From Burkholderiales bacterium (GTDB taxonomy: Bacteria > Pseudomonadota > Gammaproteobacteria > Burkholderiales > Casimicrobiaceae): a DNA stretch of 64,000 nucleotides. Position numbers and translations under genes: made by a program. The notes beneath the pieces were generated by a model. It saw only the letters and a program-made list of their open reading frames with translations. It was not told the origin of the DNA and searched no databases. How positions within the stretch are numbered: the stretch's first letter is position 1; the number at the start of each line of letters is the position of its first letter. The DNA is taken from assembly GCA_020853025.1 (NCBI GenBank), contig JADYZP010000045.1:62001-126000 (forward strand). Reading direction: 5' to 3'. Shown piece after piece: positions 13,244 to 20,537 of the stretch.

Positions 13244-14250
13244 TCCGGCTTTGCGTTCATCGCGTCCGCTGCGATCTCCACCGTGGTGGCGTCGCGCTCG
13301 AGCACCGCGCGGACCACGTAGCGCGGCCGGTCGCGCACCTGCTGGTAGATGCGTCCGACGTATTCGCCGACCAGCCCGACGCCGAAGAGCACGACACCGA
13401 TCAGGAAGAACTGCAGGATGTCGCGGTCCCACAGCGCCTTCAGGCCACCGATGTAGTCTCCGGCGAGCACGCGCTGCACGGCGACGATCGCGTAGAGCAG
13501 CACGCTTCCCGCCGCGACGAGCATGCCGATCAGCGAGAAGGCCTGCAACGGCACCAGCGAAAAGCCGGTGACGAGGTCGAAGTTGAGCCGGATCAGCCGG
13601 TAGAGCGAGTACTTCGATTCGCCGGCCGCGCGCTCCTCGTGCGCGACCTCGACCTCGGTGGGGTTGTGCGCGAAGGTGTAGGCGAGCGCCGGGATATACG
13701 TGCTTACCTCGCGGCTCGCCGCGACCGCGTCGACGATGTCGCGGCTGTAGGCGCGCAGCATGCAGCCCTGGTCGGTCATCCTGATCCGTGTGATTCGCTC
13801 GCGCAGCCGGTTCATCGCGCGCGAAGCCAGGCGCCGCCACCAGACATCCGCGCGCGTGCGGCGTACCCCGCCGACGTAGTCGTGGCCGGCGTCCATCTGC
13901 GTGAGCAGGCGCGCGATCTCCTCCGGCGGATTCTGCAGATCGGCGTCGAGCGTGACCACCCGTTCGCCGCGCACGCGCTCGAAACCCGCGATGATCGCCG
14001 TGTGCTGGCCGTAGTTGGCGTTGAACAGCACGACCCGGGTGACGTCGGGGCGCGCGAGAAACTGGTCTTTCAGCAGTGCCGCCGAACGGTCGCGGCTGCC
14101 ATCGTCGACGAAGATCACCTCGTAGGGCGTCGCCAGCGCGTCGAGCGCCGGATACAGGCGCAGGAAGAGCGCGGGCAGGCCCGCTTCCTCGTTGTAGACG
14201 GGGACGACGACGGAGAGCCGCGGGATACTCATCGATGCGCCGCCGGTCAT
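13240..14250 (-). CDS. arnC: Undecaprenyl-phosphate L-Ara4FN transferase ArnC
   Basis: A GT2 glycosyltransferase that moves L-Ara4FN from UDP to undecaprenyl phosphate on the inner membrane. The 336-residue protein starts its GT2 domain with LSVVVPVYNEEAGLP, has VDDGSRDRS and DADLQNPPEE (DxD), and ends with two transmembrane helices (about residues 230-255 and 270-295). ATG 14250 overlaps the arnB stop as ATGA; ATG 14232 (MSIPRL) is an alternative. The architecture matches ArnC and the similar DPM1-like polyprenyl transferases; the operon decides the function. Confidence 0.9.
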   Translation of the reverse strand: MTGGASMSIPRLSVVVPVYNEEAGLPALFLRLYPALDALATPYEVIFVDDGSRDRSAALLKDQFLARPDVTRVVLFNANYGQHTAIIAGFERVRGERVVTLDADLQNPPEEIARLLTQMDAGHDYVGGVRRTRADVWWRRLASRAMNRLRERITRIRMTDQGCMLRAYSRDIVDAVAASREVSTYIPALAYTFAHNPTEVEVAHEERAAGESKYSLYRLIRLNFDLVTGFSLVPLQAFSLIGMLVAAGSVLLYAIVAVQRVLAGDYIGGLKALWDRDILQFFLIGVVLFGVGLVGEYVGRIYQQVRDRPRYVVRAVLERDATTVEIAADAMNAKPE

Positions 14251-15392
14251 CGGCGATGCGCGGCCAGCACTTCGGTGCAGGCGGCGCACACGCGGTCGAC
14301 GTCGGCGTCAGTCATGGTCGGAAACAGCGGCAGCGTCACGGTCGAATCGGCGATCCGCTCGGTGTTCGGCAGGTCGCCGCGATGATAGCCGAAGCGCCGA
14401 TACGCGGACGTCAGATGCGCGGCCTCGTAGGACATGCCGGTGCCGATGCCGCGCTGCTCGAACGCGGCGCGAAAATCGCGGCGGGAGATCGCAAGCTCGG
14501 GCAACGGCAGCAGCGGTGCGTAGAGGTTCCAGCTGTGGCCGGCCTCTTCTCCCGCATATCCAGGATGCGGAAGTTCCAATGGAGGGTCGGTCCGCAGCCG
14601 CGCGCTGTACCGTGCGGCCAGCGCGCGGCGACGGGCGTTGAATTCCGGAAGCCGGGCAAGCTGGCGCAGCCCGACCACTGCGTTGACGTCGGGCAGGTTG
14701 AACTTGCCGCCGGCCACCGTGACATCGCGCGTGCCGTCGGGCAGTCGCGCGATGCCGTGAAAGCGCAGCGTTTCGACTTCCGCCGCCTCGCGCGCGTCGT
14801 TGACGACCCGCGCGCCACCTTCGATGCTGGTGAGGTTCTTGTTCGGATGGAAGCTGAAGACGCATAGGTCGCCGAAGCTGCCGATCGGCTCGCCTTTCCA
14901 CGACGAGCCGATCGCGAGTGCGGCGTCCTCGATCACGCGCAGCCCGTGCTGCCTCGCCAGTTCGTAGAGCGCGTCCATGTCGCACGGCAGGCCGCCGAAA
15001 TGCGTCGGCATGATCGCCCGGGTGCGCGGACCGATGCGCTGCGCGGTCGCCGCAAGATCGAGATTGCGGGTCGTCGCCTCGACGTCGACGAATATCGGTG
15101 TGGCGCCGGAGCGCACGATCATGTTCGGCGCGGCGAAGAAGGTCATCGCCGGCGTGATCACCTCGTCGCCTGAGCGTACACCGGCCAATTGCAGCGCGAT
15201 TTCCAGCGCGGCGGTGGCCGACGAGACGACGCGCACCGGGCGGCCCCCCACGGTCGCCGACAGCGCCGCTTCGAAGGCCTTCACCTTCGGACCGCTGGTG
15301 ATCCAGCCGGAACGCAGGACCGCAGCGACGTCGGCCGCTGTGGCGTCATCGAGCGTCGGCCGCGCGAAGGGCAGATACGGTGGCGCGCTCAT
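14247..15392 (-). CDS. arnB: UDP-L-Ara4O aminotransferase ArnB
   Basis: A PLP-dependent DegT/DnrJ/EryC1 aminotransferase that converts UDP-4-keto-pentose to UDP-L-Ara4N with glutamate as donor. The 381-residue product opens LPFARPTLDD, has the cofactor-contact region VIEDAALAIGSSWKG, and the PLP lysine in FSFHPNKNLTSIEGG. The length fits the family (~380). It follows the small transporter gene by 30 bases and is coupled to arnC by a 4-base overlap. Confidence 0.92.
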   Translation of the reverse strand: MSAPPYLPFARPTLDDATAADVAAVLRSGWITSGPKVKAFEAALSATVGGRPVRVVSSATAALEIALQLAGVRSGDEVITPAMTFFAAPNMIVRSGATPIFVDVEATTRNLDLAATAQRIGPRTRAIMPTHFGGLPCDMDALYELARQHGLRVIEDAALAIGSSWKGEPIGSFGDLCVFSFHPNKNLTSIEGGARVVNDAREAAEVETLRFHGIARLPDGTRDVTVAGGKFNLPDVNAVVGLRQLARLPEFNARRRALAARYSARLRTDPPLELPHPGYAGEEAGHSWNLYAPLLPLPELAISRRDFRAAFEQRGIGTGMSYEAAHLTSAYRRFGYHRGDLPNTERIADSTVTLPLFPTMTDADVDRVCAACTEVLAAHRR

Positions 15393-15422
15393 GTTGCGGC
15401 GGCGTCGGGTGCGCGCATGATC

Positions 15423-15794
15423 TTAGCTCCGCGCAACCAGCCAGACGCCGAGCACGATGAAGCCGATGCCGATCCAGCGCGTCGCCGTGACCGCTTCGCC
15501 GAACAGATAATGTGCGGCCACCGCATTGATCACGTAGCCCAGCGACAGCATCGGGTAGGCGATCGACACCGGCACCCGCGACAGGCCCATGATCCAGACG
15601 ACGAGGCTCACCACGTAACAGGCGACTCCGACGACGAAATAGCCCTGCGTTCCCATGCGCCAGAACGTCTCGAACCAGTTGCTGCGGGTCAGCGTGATGA
15701 CACCGAGGACGTTGGTGCCCGCCTTCAGCAACAGCTGCGCGCAGGCATTGAGCATCACGCCGGTGATGATGAAGGCGAAGGCGGATCCGGTCAT
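15423..15794 (-). CDS. Small EamA/SMR-type membrane protein, ArnE/ArnF-like
   Basis: A 123-residue protein with four predicted transmembrane helices. It starts MTGSAFAFIITGVMLNACAQ and includes KAGTNVLG and SIAYPMLSLGYVINA, typical of the SMR/EamA fold. In enterobacteria, ArnE and ArnF are thought to form a pair that flips undecaprenyl-phosphate-L-Ara4N across the inner membrane. Here only one such gene is present, so it may act as a homodimer, or the partner is elsewhere. ATG 15794 overlaps the arnT stop as ATGA. Confidence 0.82.
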   Translation of the reverse strand: MTGSAFAFIITGVMLNACAQLLLKAGTNVLGVITLTRSNWFETFWRMGTQGYFVVGVACYVVSLVVWIMGLSRVPVSIAYPMLSLGYVINAVAAHYLFGEAVTATRWIGIGFIVLGVWLVARS

Positions 15795-17494
15795 GGCGTG
15801 CGCCGCGTCGTCGCCCGCCGCGCGACGAACACGCGGCGCGGATCCCTCGCCAGGATGCGCAAGTCCACCCCGCGCGCGGCGAGCTCGTCCGCCATCGCGG
15901 GCGACATCAGCGCGAAGGCCTGTGGCGCAGCATTCCAGACGTCGATCCACGCTGCCAGCGTGTGCCCCTTTTGCGGTTCGGCGTCGAGACCCAGTCCCAT
16001 CTCGTCGCGGTAGTCGACCAGCGGCGTCGGACGTCCGAGATAAAACGGCAGCGTCTGGTCGTAGCTGCCGACCTGAAAGACCGGTAGCGCCGGATCGAGC
16101 ACCCGCGCGTCGGCGGTCTTTGCGTCCTGCAGGATGTACCAGGCGGAGCGGACCCGCGCGAACGCGTCGTAGCCGACCAGCGCCAGCTGCATGCCGATGA
16201 GCGCCGACAGCGAGAGCGCAGCGATACCCCAGGTCTTCGCTGCAGCCGAGCCGTTGCGAAACAGCGCGAACGCCGCGATGCCGCCGGCCGCGAAGCTCGC
16301 CAGCGTCGCGTTCAGCCACGCGCCGAAGTCCATGTAGACCGATGCGGGCGTGACGGGGCTGGCCAACGAGGCCACCAATTGCTCGTAACCAAGCAGTTTC
16401 GCCACCAGCAGCGAGGGCGCGCCGACTGCCAGCGGCAAGGCGATCCACGCCAGCACGCGCGGTGACAGGCGGGTCAACTCGTATCCGAGCACCAGCGCCA
16501 GCGCCGGGAACAGCGGCAGGATGTACGACGGCAGCTTCGAACCCGACAGACTGAAGAACACGAACACGAAGGCAGCCCACACGACGCAGAAGCGTTCCCA
16601 TGCGAAGCCGTTGGCGGCGACCTCGGCATCGCGCCAGCTGCGCGGCAACGTCCACGCCCAGATCAGCAGCCAGGGCATGATGCCGAGAACAAACCAGCGC
16701 ACGAAGTAGTACCACTCGCCGCTGCGGTTGTGCGCTTCGGTAAGGAAGCGCTGGTAGTGCTCGTGCACGAAAAAGAACTGCGCAAATTCCGGGTTCGCGC
16801 GCGACACCAGGATGAACCAGGGCGCTGTCAGCGCCAGGTAGACGAGCGTGCCGGCGACCGCGTGCAGCCGCCGCCACGGTCCGGTGTCGCGCGTAACCAG
16901 CGTGTACAGGATGAGCGTCGCGCCCGGAATCGCCAGCGCGACCAGGCCCTTGGTCAGCGTTGCGGCGGCCGCGGCGATGTACGCGGCGAGCATCCAGTTG
17001 CGCTGCGCCGCGGCGGACAGCGCCGGCCGCTGCGCGAGCAGGAATGCGCACAATGCGGCGGCGAGCCCCAGCGACAGCAGCGAGTCGAGCGTCAGCAATT
17101 GCGACATGCCCAGGTGCCATACGCTGCCGGCGAGCACCAGCGCAGCGTAGGCTCCGGCGTCGGGTCCTGCCAGTCGCGCCGCCGTGAAGCCGACCGCGAT
17201 CACCGCGAGAAATCCGGCGACCGCCGACGGCAGCCGTGCCGTCCATTCGTTGACACCGAAAGCGTTGAATACGGCGGCACCCACCCAATACTGCAGCGGC
17301 GGCTTCTCGAAATACTTGAGATCGTTCAACCGCGGCGTCACCCAGTCGCCGCCAGCCGCCATTTCCCGGGCGATCTCGCCGTAACGGCCCTCGTCCGGAT
17401 GCTGCAGTCGCCGGACGTCGAGGCTGCCGAACCACGCGAGCGCAACGACGAGCGCAAGCAGCCACCAGGTGCGGTGGGGAAGGGAGGCGAGCAT
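15791..17494 (-). CDS. arnT: Lipid A L-Ara4N transferase ArnT
   Basis: A GT83 inner-membrane glycosyltransferase that attaches L-Ara4N to lipid A phosphates, giving resistance to cationic peptides and polymyxin. The 567-residue product has many hydrophobic helices (first at about residues 8-24). It carries the conserved first periplasmic loop HPDEGRYGEIAREM and WVTPRLNDLKYFEKPPLQYW, with the catalytic acidic residues, and SGSKLPSYILPLFP near the middle. It is the first gene of the minus-strand arn operon. It is divergent from cysS across 288 bases. Confidence 0.9.
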   Translation of the reverse strand: MLASLPHRTWWLLALVVALAWFGSLDVRRLQHPDEGRYGEIAREMAAGGDWVTPRLNDLKYFEKPPLQYWVGAAVFNAFGVNEWTARLPSAVAGFLAVIAVGFTAARLAGPDAGAYAALVLAGSVWHLGMSQLLTLDSLLSLGLAAALCAFLLAQRPALSAAAQRNWMLAAYIAAAAATLTKGLVALAIPGATLILYTLVTRDTGPWRRLHAVAGTLVYLALTAPWFILVSRANPEFAQFFFVHEHYQRFLTEAHNRSGEWYYFVRWFVLGIMPWLLIWAWTLPRSWRDAEVAANGFAWERFCVVWAAFVFVFFSLSGSKLPSYILPLFPALALVLGYELTRLSPRVLAWIALPLAVGAPSLLVAKLLGYEQLVASLASPVTPASVYMDFGAWLNATLASFAAGGIAAFALFRNGSAAAKTWGIAALSLSALIGMQLALVGYDAFARVRSAWYILQDAKTADARVLDPALPVFQVGSYDQTLPFYLGRPTPLVDYRDEMGLGLDAEPQKGHTLAAWIDVWNAAPQAFALMSPAMADELAARGVDLRILARDPRRVFVARRATTRRTP

Positions 17495-17593
17495 CGGTTT
17501 CGGCGGGTCTGGAGGTGGCGCGGCGGAGCGTCGTGCATTCTACCGCGACGCCTGCGGCGTTTCTTCCGGCCGACGCGCGAGCCGCGTCGCGCC

Positions 17594-17621
17594 TTGCGCG
17601 AAGCACCGGTTTGCGCATAAC
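17594..17621 (+). promoter_or_regulatory. Promoter candidate for the cysS leader
   Basis: TTGCGC (17594-17599), a 16-base spacer and CATAAC (17616-17621) would start transcription near 17628. That is only a few bases before the leader-peptide ATG at 17631, so the leader peptide could be translated from a leaderless or near-leaderless message. Confidence 0.4.
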
Positions 17622-17630
17622 ATCGACCGC

Positions 17631-17708
17631 ATGTCGACCACCACCGCGCGTTTACTGTCCTGTTGCCGGTCCGTCGCGCCAAGGCGGCGTCCGCGTTCGC
17701 GGGCCTGA
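17631..17708 (+). CDS. Candidate 25-residue leader peptide with tandem Cys codons
   Basis: A short open frame, ATG 17631 to TGA 17706-17708, lies between a promoter candidate and a terminator upstream of cysS. It encodes MSTTTARLLSCCRSVAP followed by an Arg-rich end. Two adjacent Cys codons, TGT TGC (17661-17666), sit at positions 11-12, in the region where a stalled ribosome would govern folding of the RNA downstream. This is the layout of a ribosome-mediated attenuator sensing charged tRNA-Cys. Translation is unproven and no ribosome-binding site is visible. Confidence 0.5.
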   Translation: MSTTTARLLSCCRSVAPRRRPRSRA

Positions 17709-17730
17709 CGGTCGCAATCGATCGCTCGAA

Positions 17731-17759
17731 AAGCCGCTGGCCACTCCGGCGGCTTTTTT
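17731..17759 (+). terminator. Intrinsic terminator in the cysS leader (attenuator candidate)
   Basis: AAGCCGCTGG (17731-17740) pairs with CCGGCGGCTT (17746-17755) around a five-base loop, followed by a T run (17754-17759). This is a textbook intrinsic terminator, yet it ends only 23 bases before the cysS ATG, so unconditional termination would silence cysS. The 5' arm (17733-17738) is complementary to GGCGGC at 17683-17688 inside the leader-peptide frame, giving a possible antiterminator pairing. It could alternatively terminate a short transcript from further upstream. Confidence 0.75.
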
Positions 17760-17782
17760 CATGATGATCCACGGATGCACCG

Positions 17783-19171
17783 ATGACCGCAGCACTCACC
17801 CTCTACGACAACTACACGCGCACGCAGCGGCGCTTCGAGCCACTCTCGCCGGCCGGCCCGGTGCGGCTCTACACCTGCGGGCCGACCGTCTACGACTACC
17901 AGCACATCGGCAATTTCCGCACCTTTCTGTTCGAGGACGTGTTGAAGCGCGTGCTGCGCTGGAACGGATATACGGTCATGCACGTGATGAACATCACCGA
18001 CGTCGGCCATCTGACGTCGGACGCCGACACCGGTGAGGACAAGATGGAGAAGGGAGCGCGGCGCACCGGCAAGACGGCCTGGGAGATCGCGCAGCTCTAC
18101 ACTGACGATTTTGTCGAGAACCTGGCCCGGCTCAACATCGAGGATGCGGACATCCTCTGCCGCGCGACCGACCACATCGCCGAGCAGATCGCGTTCATCG
18201 CCGACATCGAGCGCAATGGCTTCGCGTACGTGACCAGCGATGGCGTCTATTTCGACACCGCGAAACAGCCGGACTACGGCCACCTCGCGCGACTCGACAT
18301 CCGCGGACTCGAGGCCGGCAAGCGCATCGAACAGGGCGAAAAGCGGTCGCCGACAGATTTCGCATTATGGAAATTCTCGCCGCCCGGCGAGCGCCGGCAG
18401 ATGGAATGGGACAGTCCCTGGGGCCGCGGCTTTCCGGGCTGGCACATCGAGTGCTCGGCGATGGCGCAGAAGTACCTGGGCGATTATTTCGACATTCACT
18501 GCGGCGGCGAGGACCACATTCCGGTTCACCACACCAACGAGATCGCGCAAACCGAGGCGCGAGTGGGAACGCGGCTCGCGAACTTCTGGATGCACGGCTA
18601 CTTCCTGCTGCTCGACGATGCGAAGATGGCAAAGTCGGCCGGCGAGTTCCTACGCGTGCAGTCGCTGATCGACCGTGGCTACGACCCGCTGGTCTATCGC
18701 TACCTGTGCCTGACCGCGCACTATCGGACGCAGATGAGCTTTTCGTGGGAGGCGATGGACGCGGCGGTGACCGCGCTCGACCGCATGCGCCGTGGCGTGC
18801 ACGCGCTCGAAGAGGCGGCGCAGGTACCACCCGATGCCGCGTACATCGAGCGCTTTACCGACCAGGTGAACGACGATCTCAACGTGCCGCGCGCGCTCGC
18901 CGTGGCGTGGGAGGTGCTGCGCGGCGAAGCGCCGTCCGCGGTCAAGCGCGCGACGCTGTTGCGGTTCGACGAAGTCCTCGGACTGGGCCTTGCGGACTGG
19001 TCGCCGCGGCAGGACGCCGTCCCGCCTGAAGTCCAGGCGCTGGCCGACGCGCGCGCCGCCGCCCGCGGTGCGAAGCAGTGGGCGGAGGCCGACCGGCTGC
19101 GCGCGGAGCTGGCGGCCACCGGCTGGGAGGTGGAAGACCAGTCCGGCGGCTATCGGCTGAAAAGGCGCTGA
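17783..19171 (+). CDS. cysS: Cysteinyl-tRNA synthetase
   Basis: Charges tRNA-Cys in the cytoplasm. The 462-residue class I synthetase has the N-terminal zinc/cysteine pocket [15 protein letters not shown], including the HIGH-type HIGN. Zinc ligands also appear in WHIECSAMA and HTNEIAQTE, and the KMSKS loop appears as KMAKSAGEF. The C-terminal DALR-like domain ends with [20 protein letters not shown]. Length is normal. Start ATG 17783. Its leader holds a Cys-rich peptide frame and an intrinsic terminator, suggesting control by tRNA-Cys charging. Confidence 0.96.
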
Positions 19172-19227: not shown

Positions 19228-19941
19228 TCAGTAGAAGCGCTCGACCTTGCCCGAGTAGAGCACCGGACCCTGCGGCGCTCCGGTAGGCGAACCGCCGGCC
19301 TGCTCGAGGCTCACGACCAGCGTCGGGACTCGGGCAAACGCAAACTCCGGCGGCACCGGCAGGCCGATGCGACCGACACCGACGGCCGGAATCACGCCGA
19401 GCGACCGCGGTGGCGCGTCTTCAGGCAGCATCCACAGCTCCAGCGATTTGTCCGCAGGCACCGGCGCCGCGTCGACGACCTTGACCGTCATGATGCGGCC
19501 GCCGCGGGTCAGCGTCGCAATCAGCGCGGGCCTGGCGTCGGCCCCCGACATCACGACGACGATCGGCGGGCCGGTGACGTCCCTTCGTGGTGACAGCAAC
19601 ACCACGGCCAGCGCCAGAACGGCGATAAAGGCGACGAGCGCCAGCACGCGCCAGAACGCAAGCAGCTTCCACCACGGCACCCGGGTGTGCGGCCGCTCGG
19701 GTGCGAGCCCCAGCCGCAGCGCGATGAGGCGCCACAGCTGTGGCGGTGGCACGATCGGCGGCCCGGCTTCCGACAGCGGCGACAGCCGCTGCTCCCATTC
19801 GCGAATGGTCGCGGCGACGACGATATCGGTCTGCGCGACGCGTGCCAGGCGCAGCCGTGCGCGTGCCGGCAGCGTCCCGAGCGCGTAGGCTGCGGCAAGC
19901 GCATCGAGCCGGTGCAACCGGTCAGGGCGCGACAGGTTCAT
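19228..19941 (-). CDS. RskA-type anti-sigma factor
   Basis: A 237-residue inner-membrane anti-sigma factor. The cytoplasmic N-terminal part (about residues 1-90, with RLDALAAAYALGTLPARAR and the WEQRLSPL motif) should bind the sigma factor encoded just upstream. One transmembrane helix follows (about 95-118), then a periplasmic RskA domain containing KSLELWMLPEDAPPRSLGVI and ending GPVLYSGKVERFY. ATG 19941 overlaps the sigma stop codon as ATGA, the usual coupling for a sigma/anti-sigma pair. Release probably needs proteolysis by proteases not in the window. Confidence 0.88.
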   Translation of the reverse strand: MNLSRPDRLHRLDALAAAYALGTLPARARLRLARVAQTDIVVAATIREWEQRLSPLSEAGPPIVPPPQLWRLIALRLGLAPERPHTRVPWWKLLAFWRVLALVAFIAVLALAVVLLSPRRDVTGPPIVVVMSGADARPALIATLTRGGRIMTVKVVDAAPVPADKSLELWMLPEDAPPRSLGVIPAVGVGRIGLPVPPEFAFARVPTLVVSLEQAGGSPTGAPQGPVLYSGKVERFY

Positions 19942-20537
19942 CGGTTCCGCGTGCAGCTGGCATGGTCGAGACAATGCTTGAGCTTTGCAAGACCACGCCG
20001 CACTTTCGACTTGACCGTGCCCAGCGGCTCGCGCAATTGCGCGGCCAGCTCGGCGTGCGTCAAGCCCTGATACAAAGCGAGCGCAACGGCCTGCCTGGTG
20101 CCGGCGTCGAGCGCCTCGACGCAGTCGCGCGCCGACTGCGCGTCTGCACCGGCCAGCAGCATCTCGGCAGCGGTCATGGCATCGGGTGGGGGCTCGTAGG
20201 ACGGTGCGTCGTCGTCATCGGGAGGCGCGATTAGCGCAACGAGCTCCCGCCGCCGCAGCGTATCGAGACAGCGATTGCGTACGATCGACGTGAGCCAGGT
20301 CAGCGGCTGGCTTTTCGCGACCTCGTAGGCTCCCGCGTGATGCCAGATGTTGACGTATGCCTCCTGCAGGATTTCCTCAGCGGCGGCAAAACTCCTCAGG
20401 ATGCGCAGCGCGACACCATACAGATGCGGCGATGTGACGGCGTAGAACTCCCCGAACGCCGCCTGGTCGCCAAGCGCGATGCGCGCCAGCAATGCCGACA
20501 GCTGCGCGCTCCTGTCGGAGGTGACCGGTCCGGGCAC
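19938..20537 (-). CDS. ECF-type RNA polymerase sigma factor (SigK-like)
   Basis: A 199-residue group 4 sigma factor. Region 2 lies around residues 25-95 (FGEFYAVTSPHLYGVALRIL, EEILQEAYVNIW, WLTSIVRNRCLD). Region 4 lies around 135-190 (ALYQGLTHAELAAQL, LGTVKSKVRRGLAKL). An acidic linker rich in Asp and Pro separates them. Pairing with an RskA-type anti-sigma places it in the SigK-like group. It starts three bases after the adenosyltransferase stop, so it is probably read from that gene's message. Target promoters are unknown. Confidence 0.9.
   Translation of the reverse strand: MPGPVTSDRSAQLSALLARIALGDQAAFGEFYAVTSPHLYGVALRILRSFAAAEEILQEAYVNIWHHAGAYEVAKSQPLTWLTSIVRNRCLDTLRRRELVALIAPPDDDDAPSYEPPPDAMTAAEMLLAGADAQSARDCVEALDAGTRQAVALALYQGLTHAELAAQLREPLGTVKSKVRRGLAKLKHCLDHASCTRNR

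Follow-up and report, generated by a model that had tools for sequence, protein, structure and literature searches.

A probable cysteine-codon attenuator ahead of a type-2 cysteinyl-tRNA synthetase gene in Burkholderiales

The leader of cysS in the DNA analysed here (64,000 nucleotides from a Burkholderiales bacterium, hereafter the window) is, as far as its sequence allows it to be judged, with high probability a ribosome-mediated transcription attenuator. As a piece of anatomy the attenuator is real, and its function is very likely. Its parts recur among relatives, are present or absent jointly and, across relatives, show stronger pairing between native partners than between permuted ones. 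Cys-codon control of cysS is a known kind of switch, extended here to a new group, the betaproteobacteria, with two additions, namely that the leader peptide is probably translated from a leaderless RNA and that the attenuator is linked to an accessory CysRS.

The gene (17783..19171, on the + strand, as are all leader features described below) encodes a type-2 cysteinyl-tRNA synthetase of 462 aa; no second full CysRS was found in the genome. The product is recognized as a cysteine--tRNA ligase by TIGR00435 (408.5 bits, cut-off 340); its top model is NF011108, at 510 bits, under that model's cut-off of 780. Among the matches listed for the order sample, a few from outside the family are 60–65% identical to it and the others about 37–44%, and ‘type 2’ is our own label for the 60–65% kind.

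The first-pass annotation of this DNA described a 25-codon frame with adjacent TGT TGC codons ahead of cysS and a terminator whose T6 lies 23 bases before the cysS ATG, and a recheck of the coordinates bears out both. The leader ORF (uORF; MSTTTARLLSCCRSVAPRRRPRSRA) occupies 17631..17708, and the presumed regulatory Cys codons are its codons 11–12 (17661..17666). The intrinsic terminator (17729..17759) has arms at 17729–17740 and 17746–17757, a loop at 17741–17745 and T6 at 17754–17759. Counting A–T pairs and one G·U, its stem has 12 pairs, of which the 10 originally reported are the inner ones. It is absent from the list of a simple consensus scanner run over 17200–18000, possibly owing to the overlap of stem and T tract. 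The promoter candidate fared less well. Its boxes are present (–35, TTGCGC, 17594..17599; –10, TAACAT, 17618..17623, 18 nt further 3′ and 7 nt 5′ of the uORF ATG), but they match the consensus at three and four of six positions, and a consensus scan of 17200–18000 listed no sigma-70-like promoter, so that the candidate is weak on its own. Since the upstream gene for an ArnT-like glycosyltransferase is read as divergent from cysS and the 23 nt behind T6 offer little room for an ordinary promoter, transcription of cysS most likely has to pass through the terminator.

Two further structures complete the leader. A candidate 1:2 hairpin (17673..17688), which appears in the minimum-energy fold and to which we assign a presumptive role, pairs 17673–17677 with 17684–17688 directly 3′ of the Cys codons. 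A candidate antiterminator (17678..17741) emerges when the RNA is folded from the edge of a stalled ribosome, before the 3′ terminator arm exists; its best register has nine Watson–Crick pairs (17678–17681 with 17738–17741 and 17684–17688 with 17733–17737) and excludes both the terminator and the small hairpin. The pairing proposed earlier, GGCGGC (17683–17688) with GCCGCT (17733–17738), can form, with five Watson–Crick pairs and one G·U, and the nine-pair register is better.

We infer the following order of events. The RNA would start at or adjacent to the AUG of the leader ORF. With Cys-tRNA charged, the ribosome would clear the Cys codons and run to the stop codon, the terminator would form and transcription would end short of cysS. 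With charged Cys-tRNA in low supply, the ribosome would instead stall at TGT TGC and cover the 5′ side of the small hairpin; the freed segment 17678–17688 could then pair with the terminator 5′ arm (17733–17741), and RNA polymerase would read on into cysS in response to Cys shortage.

Taken by itself, the window gives modest statistics. Among 4000 dinucleotide-shuffled leaders, 59 yield a Cys–Cys run within a short ORF, which by itself is weak evidence. The antiterminator pairing is not above chance against shuffles (P = 0.37 and 0.20 in two tests), and the fold of the whole leader is not better than shuffles (z = –1.19). Both strands of 328 kb of the same genome, the stretch in which other Cys attenuators were sought, hold 15 terminators scoring at least 20, and only the cysS terminator has a Cys–Cys ORF upstream. 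The Cys-codon attenuator model of the first-pass annotation is well supported by comparison among relatives, and we regard the first-pass interpretation as a whole as partly supported.

For the comparison, 214 leaders of related cysS genes were collected, 179 of them distinct in their last 120 bases; one locus, L023, lacks the N-terminus. With terminators counted at a score of at least 17, a short ORF with tandem Cys codons precedes the terminator in 87 of 101 terminator-bearing leaders of type-2 CysRS genes, where 5.6 are expected. The combination is found in 41/42 such leaders of the Burkholderiaceae (f32; 43 leaders in all), 12/12 of f28 (13 in all), 1/1 of f33 and 12/13 of a set of hand-picked Burkholderiales loci (genome_contigs). 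This last set was limited to 13 loci; two more passed the terminator threshold (15 in all), L055 and L096, neither scored as having a Cys–Cys run, and with them the total becomes 87/103. In the window's family the counts are 16/16 for genus f1g3, 2/2 for f1g4, 1/3 for f1g5, 2/6 for the window's genus (f1g1), 0/4 for f1g2 and 0/1 each for f1g6 and f1g7. Among the leaders from Chloroflexi, Gammaproteobacteria and other distant groups there is no case of a tandem-Cys ORF with a terminator.

The geometry of these leaders recurs as well. The ORF is 25 codons long in 52 of the 87, and the distance from the Cys run to the terminator arm is 64–76 nt in Burkholderiaceae and 67 nt in the window; the tandem Cys lies at codon 15 in 39/41 Burkholderiaceae leaders and at codon 11 in the window. 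An in-frame start codon lies 4–9 nt 3′ of a TAnnnT box in 85/87 leaders, a figure that is partly by construction because the start codon was picked with the box in mind. Less affected by that choice are the narrow mode at 7 nt (6–7 nt in 78/85) and the strict pattern TTGAC–TAnnnT–ATG, which fits 64/87 leaders as a raw count. The –35 box picked by the script is TTGACC, TTGACG or TTGACA in 65/85. With this spacing between box and ATG the RNA would start at or next to the AUG, and the leader peptide is therefore probably translated from a leaderless start. Mycobacterial Cys-run leader ORFs are reportedly leaderless, to go by the title of a 2020 study by Canestrari.

The choice of Cys codon is also distinctive. 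TGT accounts for 161 of the 284 Cys codons in the 87 leaders, compared with 26 of 430 in the corresponding cysS genes, and it is present in 86 of the 87 tandems. Either the wobble codon sharpens sensing, or pairing within the hairpin favors TGT.

Two kinds of test were applied to the RNA structures, a shuffle test and, after it, a comparison of each leader's own pairing partners with permuted ones, rerun without overlapping segments; both leave shared ancestry in. Against shuffles, no enrichment in antiterminator energy is seen in the window, in Burkholderiaceae or in f28. It is better than shuffles in members of f1g4 and f1g5 (P = 0.005, 0.005 and 0.035), and P is at most 0.05 for 6 of the 16 f1g3 leaders, or 3 of 16 in a second test. 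The terminator 5′ arm in fact pairs upstream less than in shuffles in Burkholderiaceae f32 (0.33 vs 0.61) and f28 (0.54 vs 0.69), which means that any antiterminator in these groups has to be short, with most of it immediately 5′ of the arm. In the permutation test, the pairing of the antiterminator with its own partner is reached by 0 of 5000 permutations over all leaders (n = 87), in the window's family together with f33 (n = 22) and within f1g3 (n = 16), by 72/5000 in f32 plus genome_contigs (n = 53) and by 111/5000 in f28 (n = 12).

For a hairpin that contains the Cys codons, the own pairing is equaled by 0 of 5000 permutations in f32, f28 and genome_contigs combined (n = 65). A local hairpin around these codons is favored there, with mean z of –1.54 (f32), –1.02 (f28) and –1.17 (genome_contigs), and is not favored in the window's family (0.21, 0.59 and 0.30 for f1g1, f1g3 and f1g4). 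Consensus folds in f1g3 show only the terminator.

Within the window's family, presence and absence of the two parts are linked. A Cys ORF accompanies 24 of 33 leaders with a terminator and 2 of 29 without (Fisher P = 9e-8, uncorrected for ancestry); in the window's genus the ORF is found at promoter spacing in 6/6 leaders with a terminator and in 1/16 without. Relatives that keep the terminator and lack the Cys-containing frame, which the first-pass annotation had named as evidence against its model, do not occur among the genus leaders compared, all six terminator-bearing leaders having at least one Cys codon in the ORF, but the tandem is kept in only two of the six. The genus has 22 distinct leaders, and 16 lack the terminator, among them those of the three most similar CysS proteins (L002–L004, 81–82% identity). 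By eye, a TACCAT box is still recognizable 5′ of cysS in L002 and L003, as would be expected after a deletion that removed ORF and terminator but spared the promoter.

These losses, the four of six remaining genus leaders that have no tandem Cys and the lack of significance of the window antiterminator by itself would fit a relic, that is, an ancestral attenuator decaying in the genus, with a terminator that here only lowers cysS expression constitutively. We consider this unlikely for the window, which retains all parts in typical geometry (25 codons, a TGT-first tandem, 67 nt from Cys run to terminator) with a strong terminator ending in T6 and a nine-pair Watson–Crick antiterminator.

A still less probable explanation is that the Cys-rich ORF works through translational coupling or Rho-dependent control and that the hairpin is incidental. 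Control of this kind has been proposed for actinobacterial Cys-run leaders, described as having no intrinsic terminators (PMC1262725, in excerpt), and several Oxalobacteraceae-type leaders have Cys runs right before the stop codon and no convincing terminator. In the window and 86 other leaders, however, the Cys ORF has a T-run terminator behind it, and ORF and terminator occur or are missing as a pair. Least credible is a small functional Cys-pair protein, with a metal or redox role unrelated to cysS control: the tandem Cys is conserved, and the attenuator leader peptide peTrpL is reported to act in trans (PMC7298713, in excerpt), but it is Cys position and ORF length that recur while the remaining residues vary between families, and the uORF has no NCBIfam match.

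The attenuator goes with the type-2 gene. Type-2 cysS was found in 44 of the 398 f32 genomes sampled, with partial matches in three, in 14 of 61 f28 genomes and in seven plasmid records of Burkholderia and Paraburkholderia. Paraburkholderia phymatum STM815 carries it on NC_010625.1, and in the one plasmid record checked by eye, from B. stagnalis, the gene carries the leader. A canonical CysRS is also present in all 55 type-2 genomes of f32 and f28 tested (41 of the 44 in f32, the three with partial matches being left out, and 14/14 in f28), and two of five other genomes have type 2 only. In nine named two-copy genomes the type-2 leader belongs to the set with Cys ORF and terminator in 9/9, directly or through a leader with identical last 120 bases, and the canonical cysS has a Cys–Cys leader ORF within 260 nt in 0/9. 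The window's family, as far as tested, has type-2 CysRS only: each of four genomes has one full CysRS gene, of type 2, and in a search of 64 genomes of the family 63 have a match, the five with two matches showing partial pieces. It is the contrast of 9/9 with 0/9, together with the type-2-only state of the window's family, that ties the attenuator to the type-2 gene.

The attenuated CysRS type is frequently the second of two copies, and its control therefore predicts a reserve synthetase, induced when charged Cys-tRNA becomes limiting; in two-copy genomes the type-2 enzyme would be such a reserve. More broadly, the Burkholderiales may harbor a portable, starvation-induced reserve CysRS of type 2 that spreads sporadically, also on megaplasmids, with its own leaderless, TGT-tuned attenuator, alongside a housekeeping CysRS that lacks attenuation; the reserve enzyme would have become the sole CysRS in the window's family, many lineages there having since lost the attenuator. 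We consider the case for and against this broader picture about evenly balanced. The leaders offer a clean system for the study of leaderless attenuators, of a rare synonymous codon as a sensor and of regulator loss after an accessory enzyme becomes essential.

Three loci deserve separate mention. Locus L232 (G879:C3:132910-134274) has a type-2 cysS with one in-frame TAG behind a leader with Cys ORF and terminator. Upstream of the canonical cysS of Burkholderia sp. OK233 (L171) lies a stretch of TGC/TGT triplets without a Cys–Cys ORF of its own. The Vibrio coralliilyticus plasmid pOCN014 (L281), typed as mobilizable, carries a cysS two genes from the serine acetyltransferase gene epsC; its product is 52.7% identical to the Achromobacter type-2 CysRS, and no Cys leader is seen upstream by eye.

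Neither the window nor any of 14 related loci matches an Rfam family at gathering score, and a T-box was rejected on this basis. In Firmicutes the T-box controls aminoacyl-tRNA synthetase genes, including second copies such as thrZ. As in the switch proposed for the window, uncharged tRNA turns on a synthetase that is sometimes a reserve copy, but the T-box does so by direct binding of tRNA and without a peptide.

The open-access literature, to which our search was largely confined, yielded neither a cysS attenuator in betaproteobacteria nor a description of a second, attenuated CysRS. Older comparative work on proteobacterial attenuators may touch on betaproteobacterial cysS attenuation. No cysS peptide attenuator from proteobacteria was known to the first-pass annotation, yet one has been published: uORFC-8-2, with 145 examples in Rhodobacterales, the sole description that the search returned (PMC8632094, in excerpt). 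It resembles the present leaders in its cysS target, in a uORF whose two tandem Cys codons usually stand at positions 14–15, in two stems of which the first holds the Cys codons, in a 3′ U run and in the proposed mechanism (PMC8632094). The leaders described here agree with its definition in architecture only, having a uORF before cysS, tandem Cys codons in it (codon 15 in most Burkholderiaceae leaders, codon 11 in the window) and a terminator. They differ in that uORFC-8-2 is reported exclusively in Rhodobacterales and is dominated by UGC, where the betaproteobacterial leaders are enriched in TGT, and in that the excerpted description mentions neither a leaderless start nor an accessory synthetase copy (PMC8632094). 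The upstream region of a Paracoccus plasmid cysS, inspected for comparison with uORFC-8-2, was uninformative. Among other papers, and within the parts available, PMC2965389 has no ‘cysS’ in its main text, PMC11995493 has it in a reference only, and PMC11472039 has it in a context unrelated to attenuation.

More distant parallels exist. Cys-run leader ORFs with proposed Cys-responsive control, as in the window, are described in actinobacteria, without a conserved intrinsic terminator in the 2005 analysis (PMC1262725), and in mycobacteria (PMC4633059); unlike the window, these have cys operons, cysA2 and cbs as targets and place the Cys runs near the stop codon, according to the excerpted text of both papers. 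The trpL leader of Sinorhizobium meliloti is a classical attenuator in which transcription begins at the leader-ORF ATG, as proposed for the window, but it uses Trp codons and controls trpE(G) (PMC7298713, in excerpt).

In leaders of Undibacterium and Oxalobacteraceae-like type-2 cysS genes (L096, L072, L149, L150 and L070) the ORF carries its Cys run at the stop codon or adjacent to it, with no convincing intrinsic terminator downstream, in which they resemble the actinobacterial leaders; L096 has six Cys codons in its ORF, and the terminator called there overlaps that ORF. These leaders possibly represent another mode of control. In the window itself, cysS is flanked on both sides by genes on the – strand: upstream (14247–17494) those for an ArnB-like aminotransferase and the ArnT-like glycosyltransferase, both under the curated cut-offs of the named models, and directly downstream (19228–20537) an ECF sigma factor and anti-sigma factor pair.
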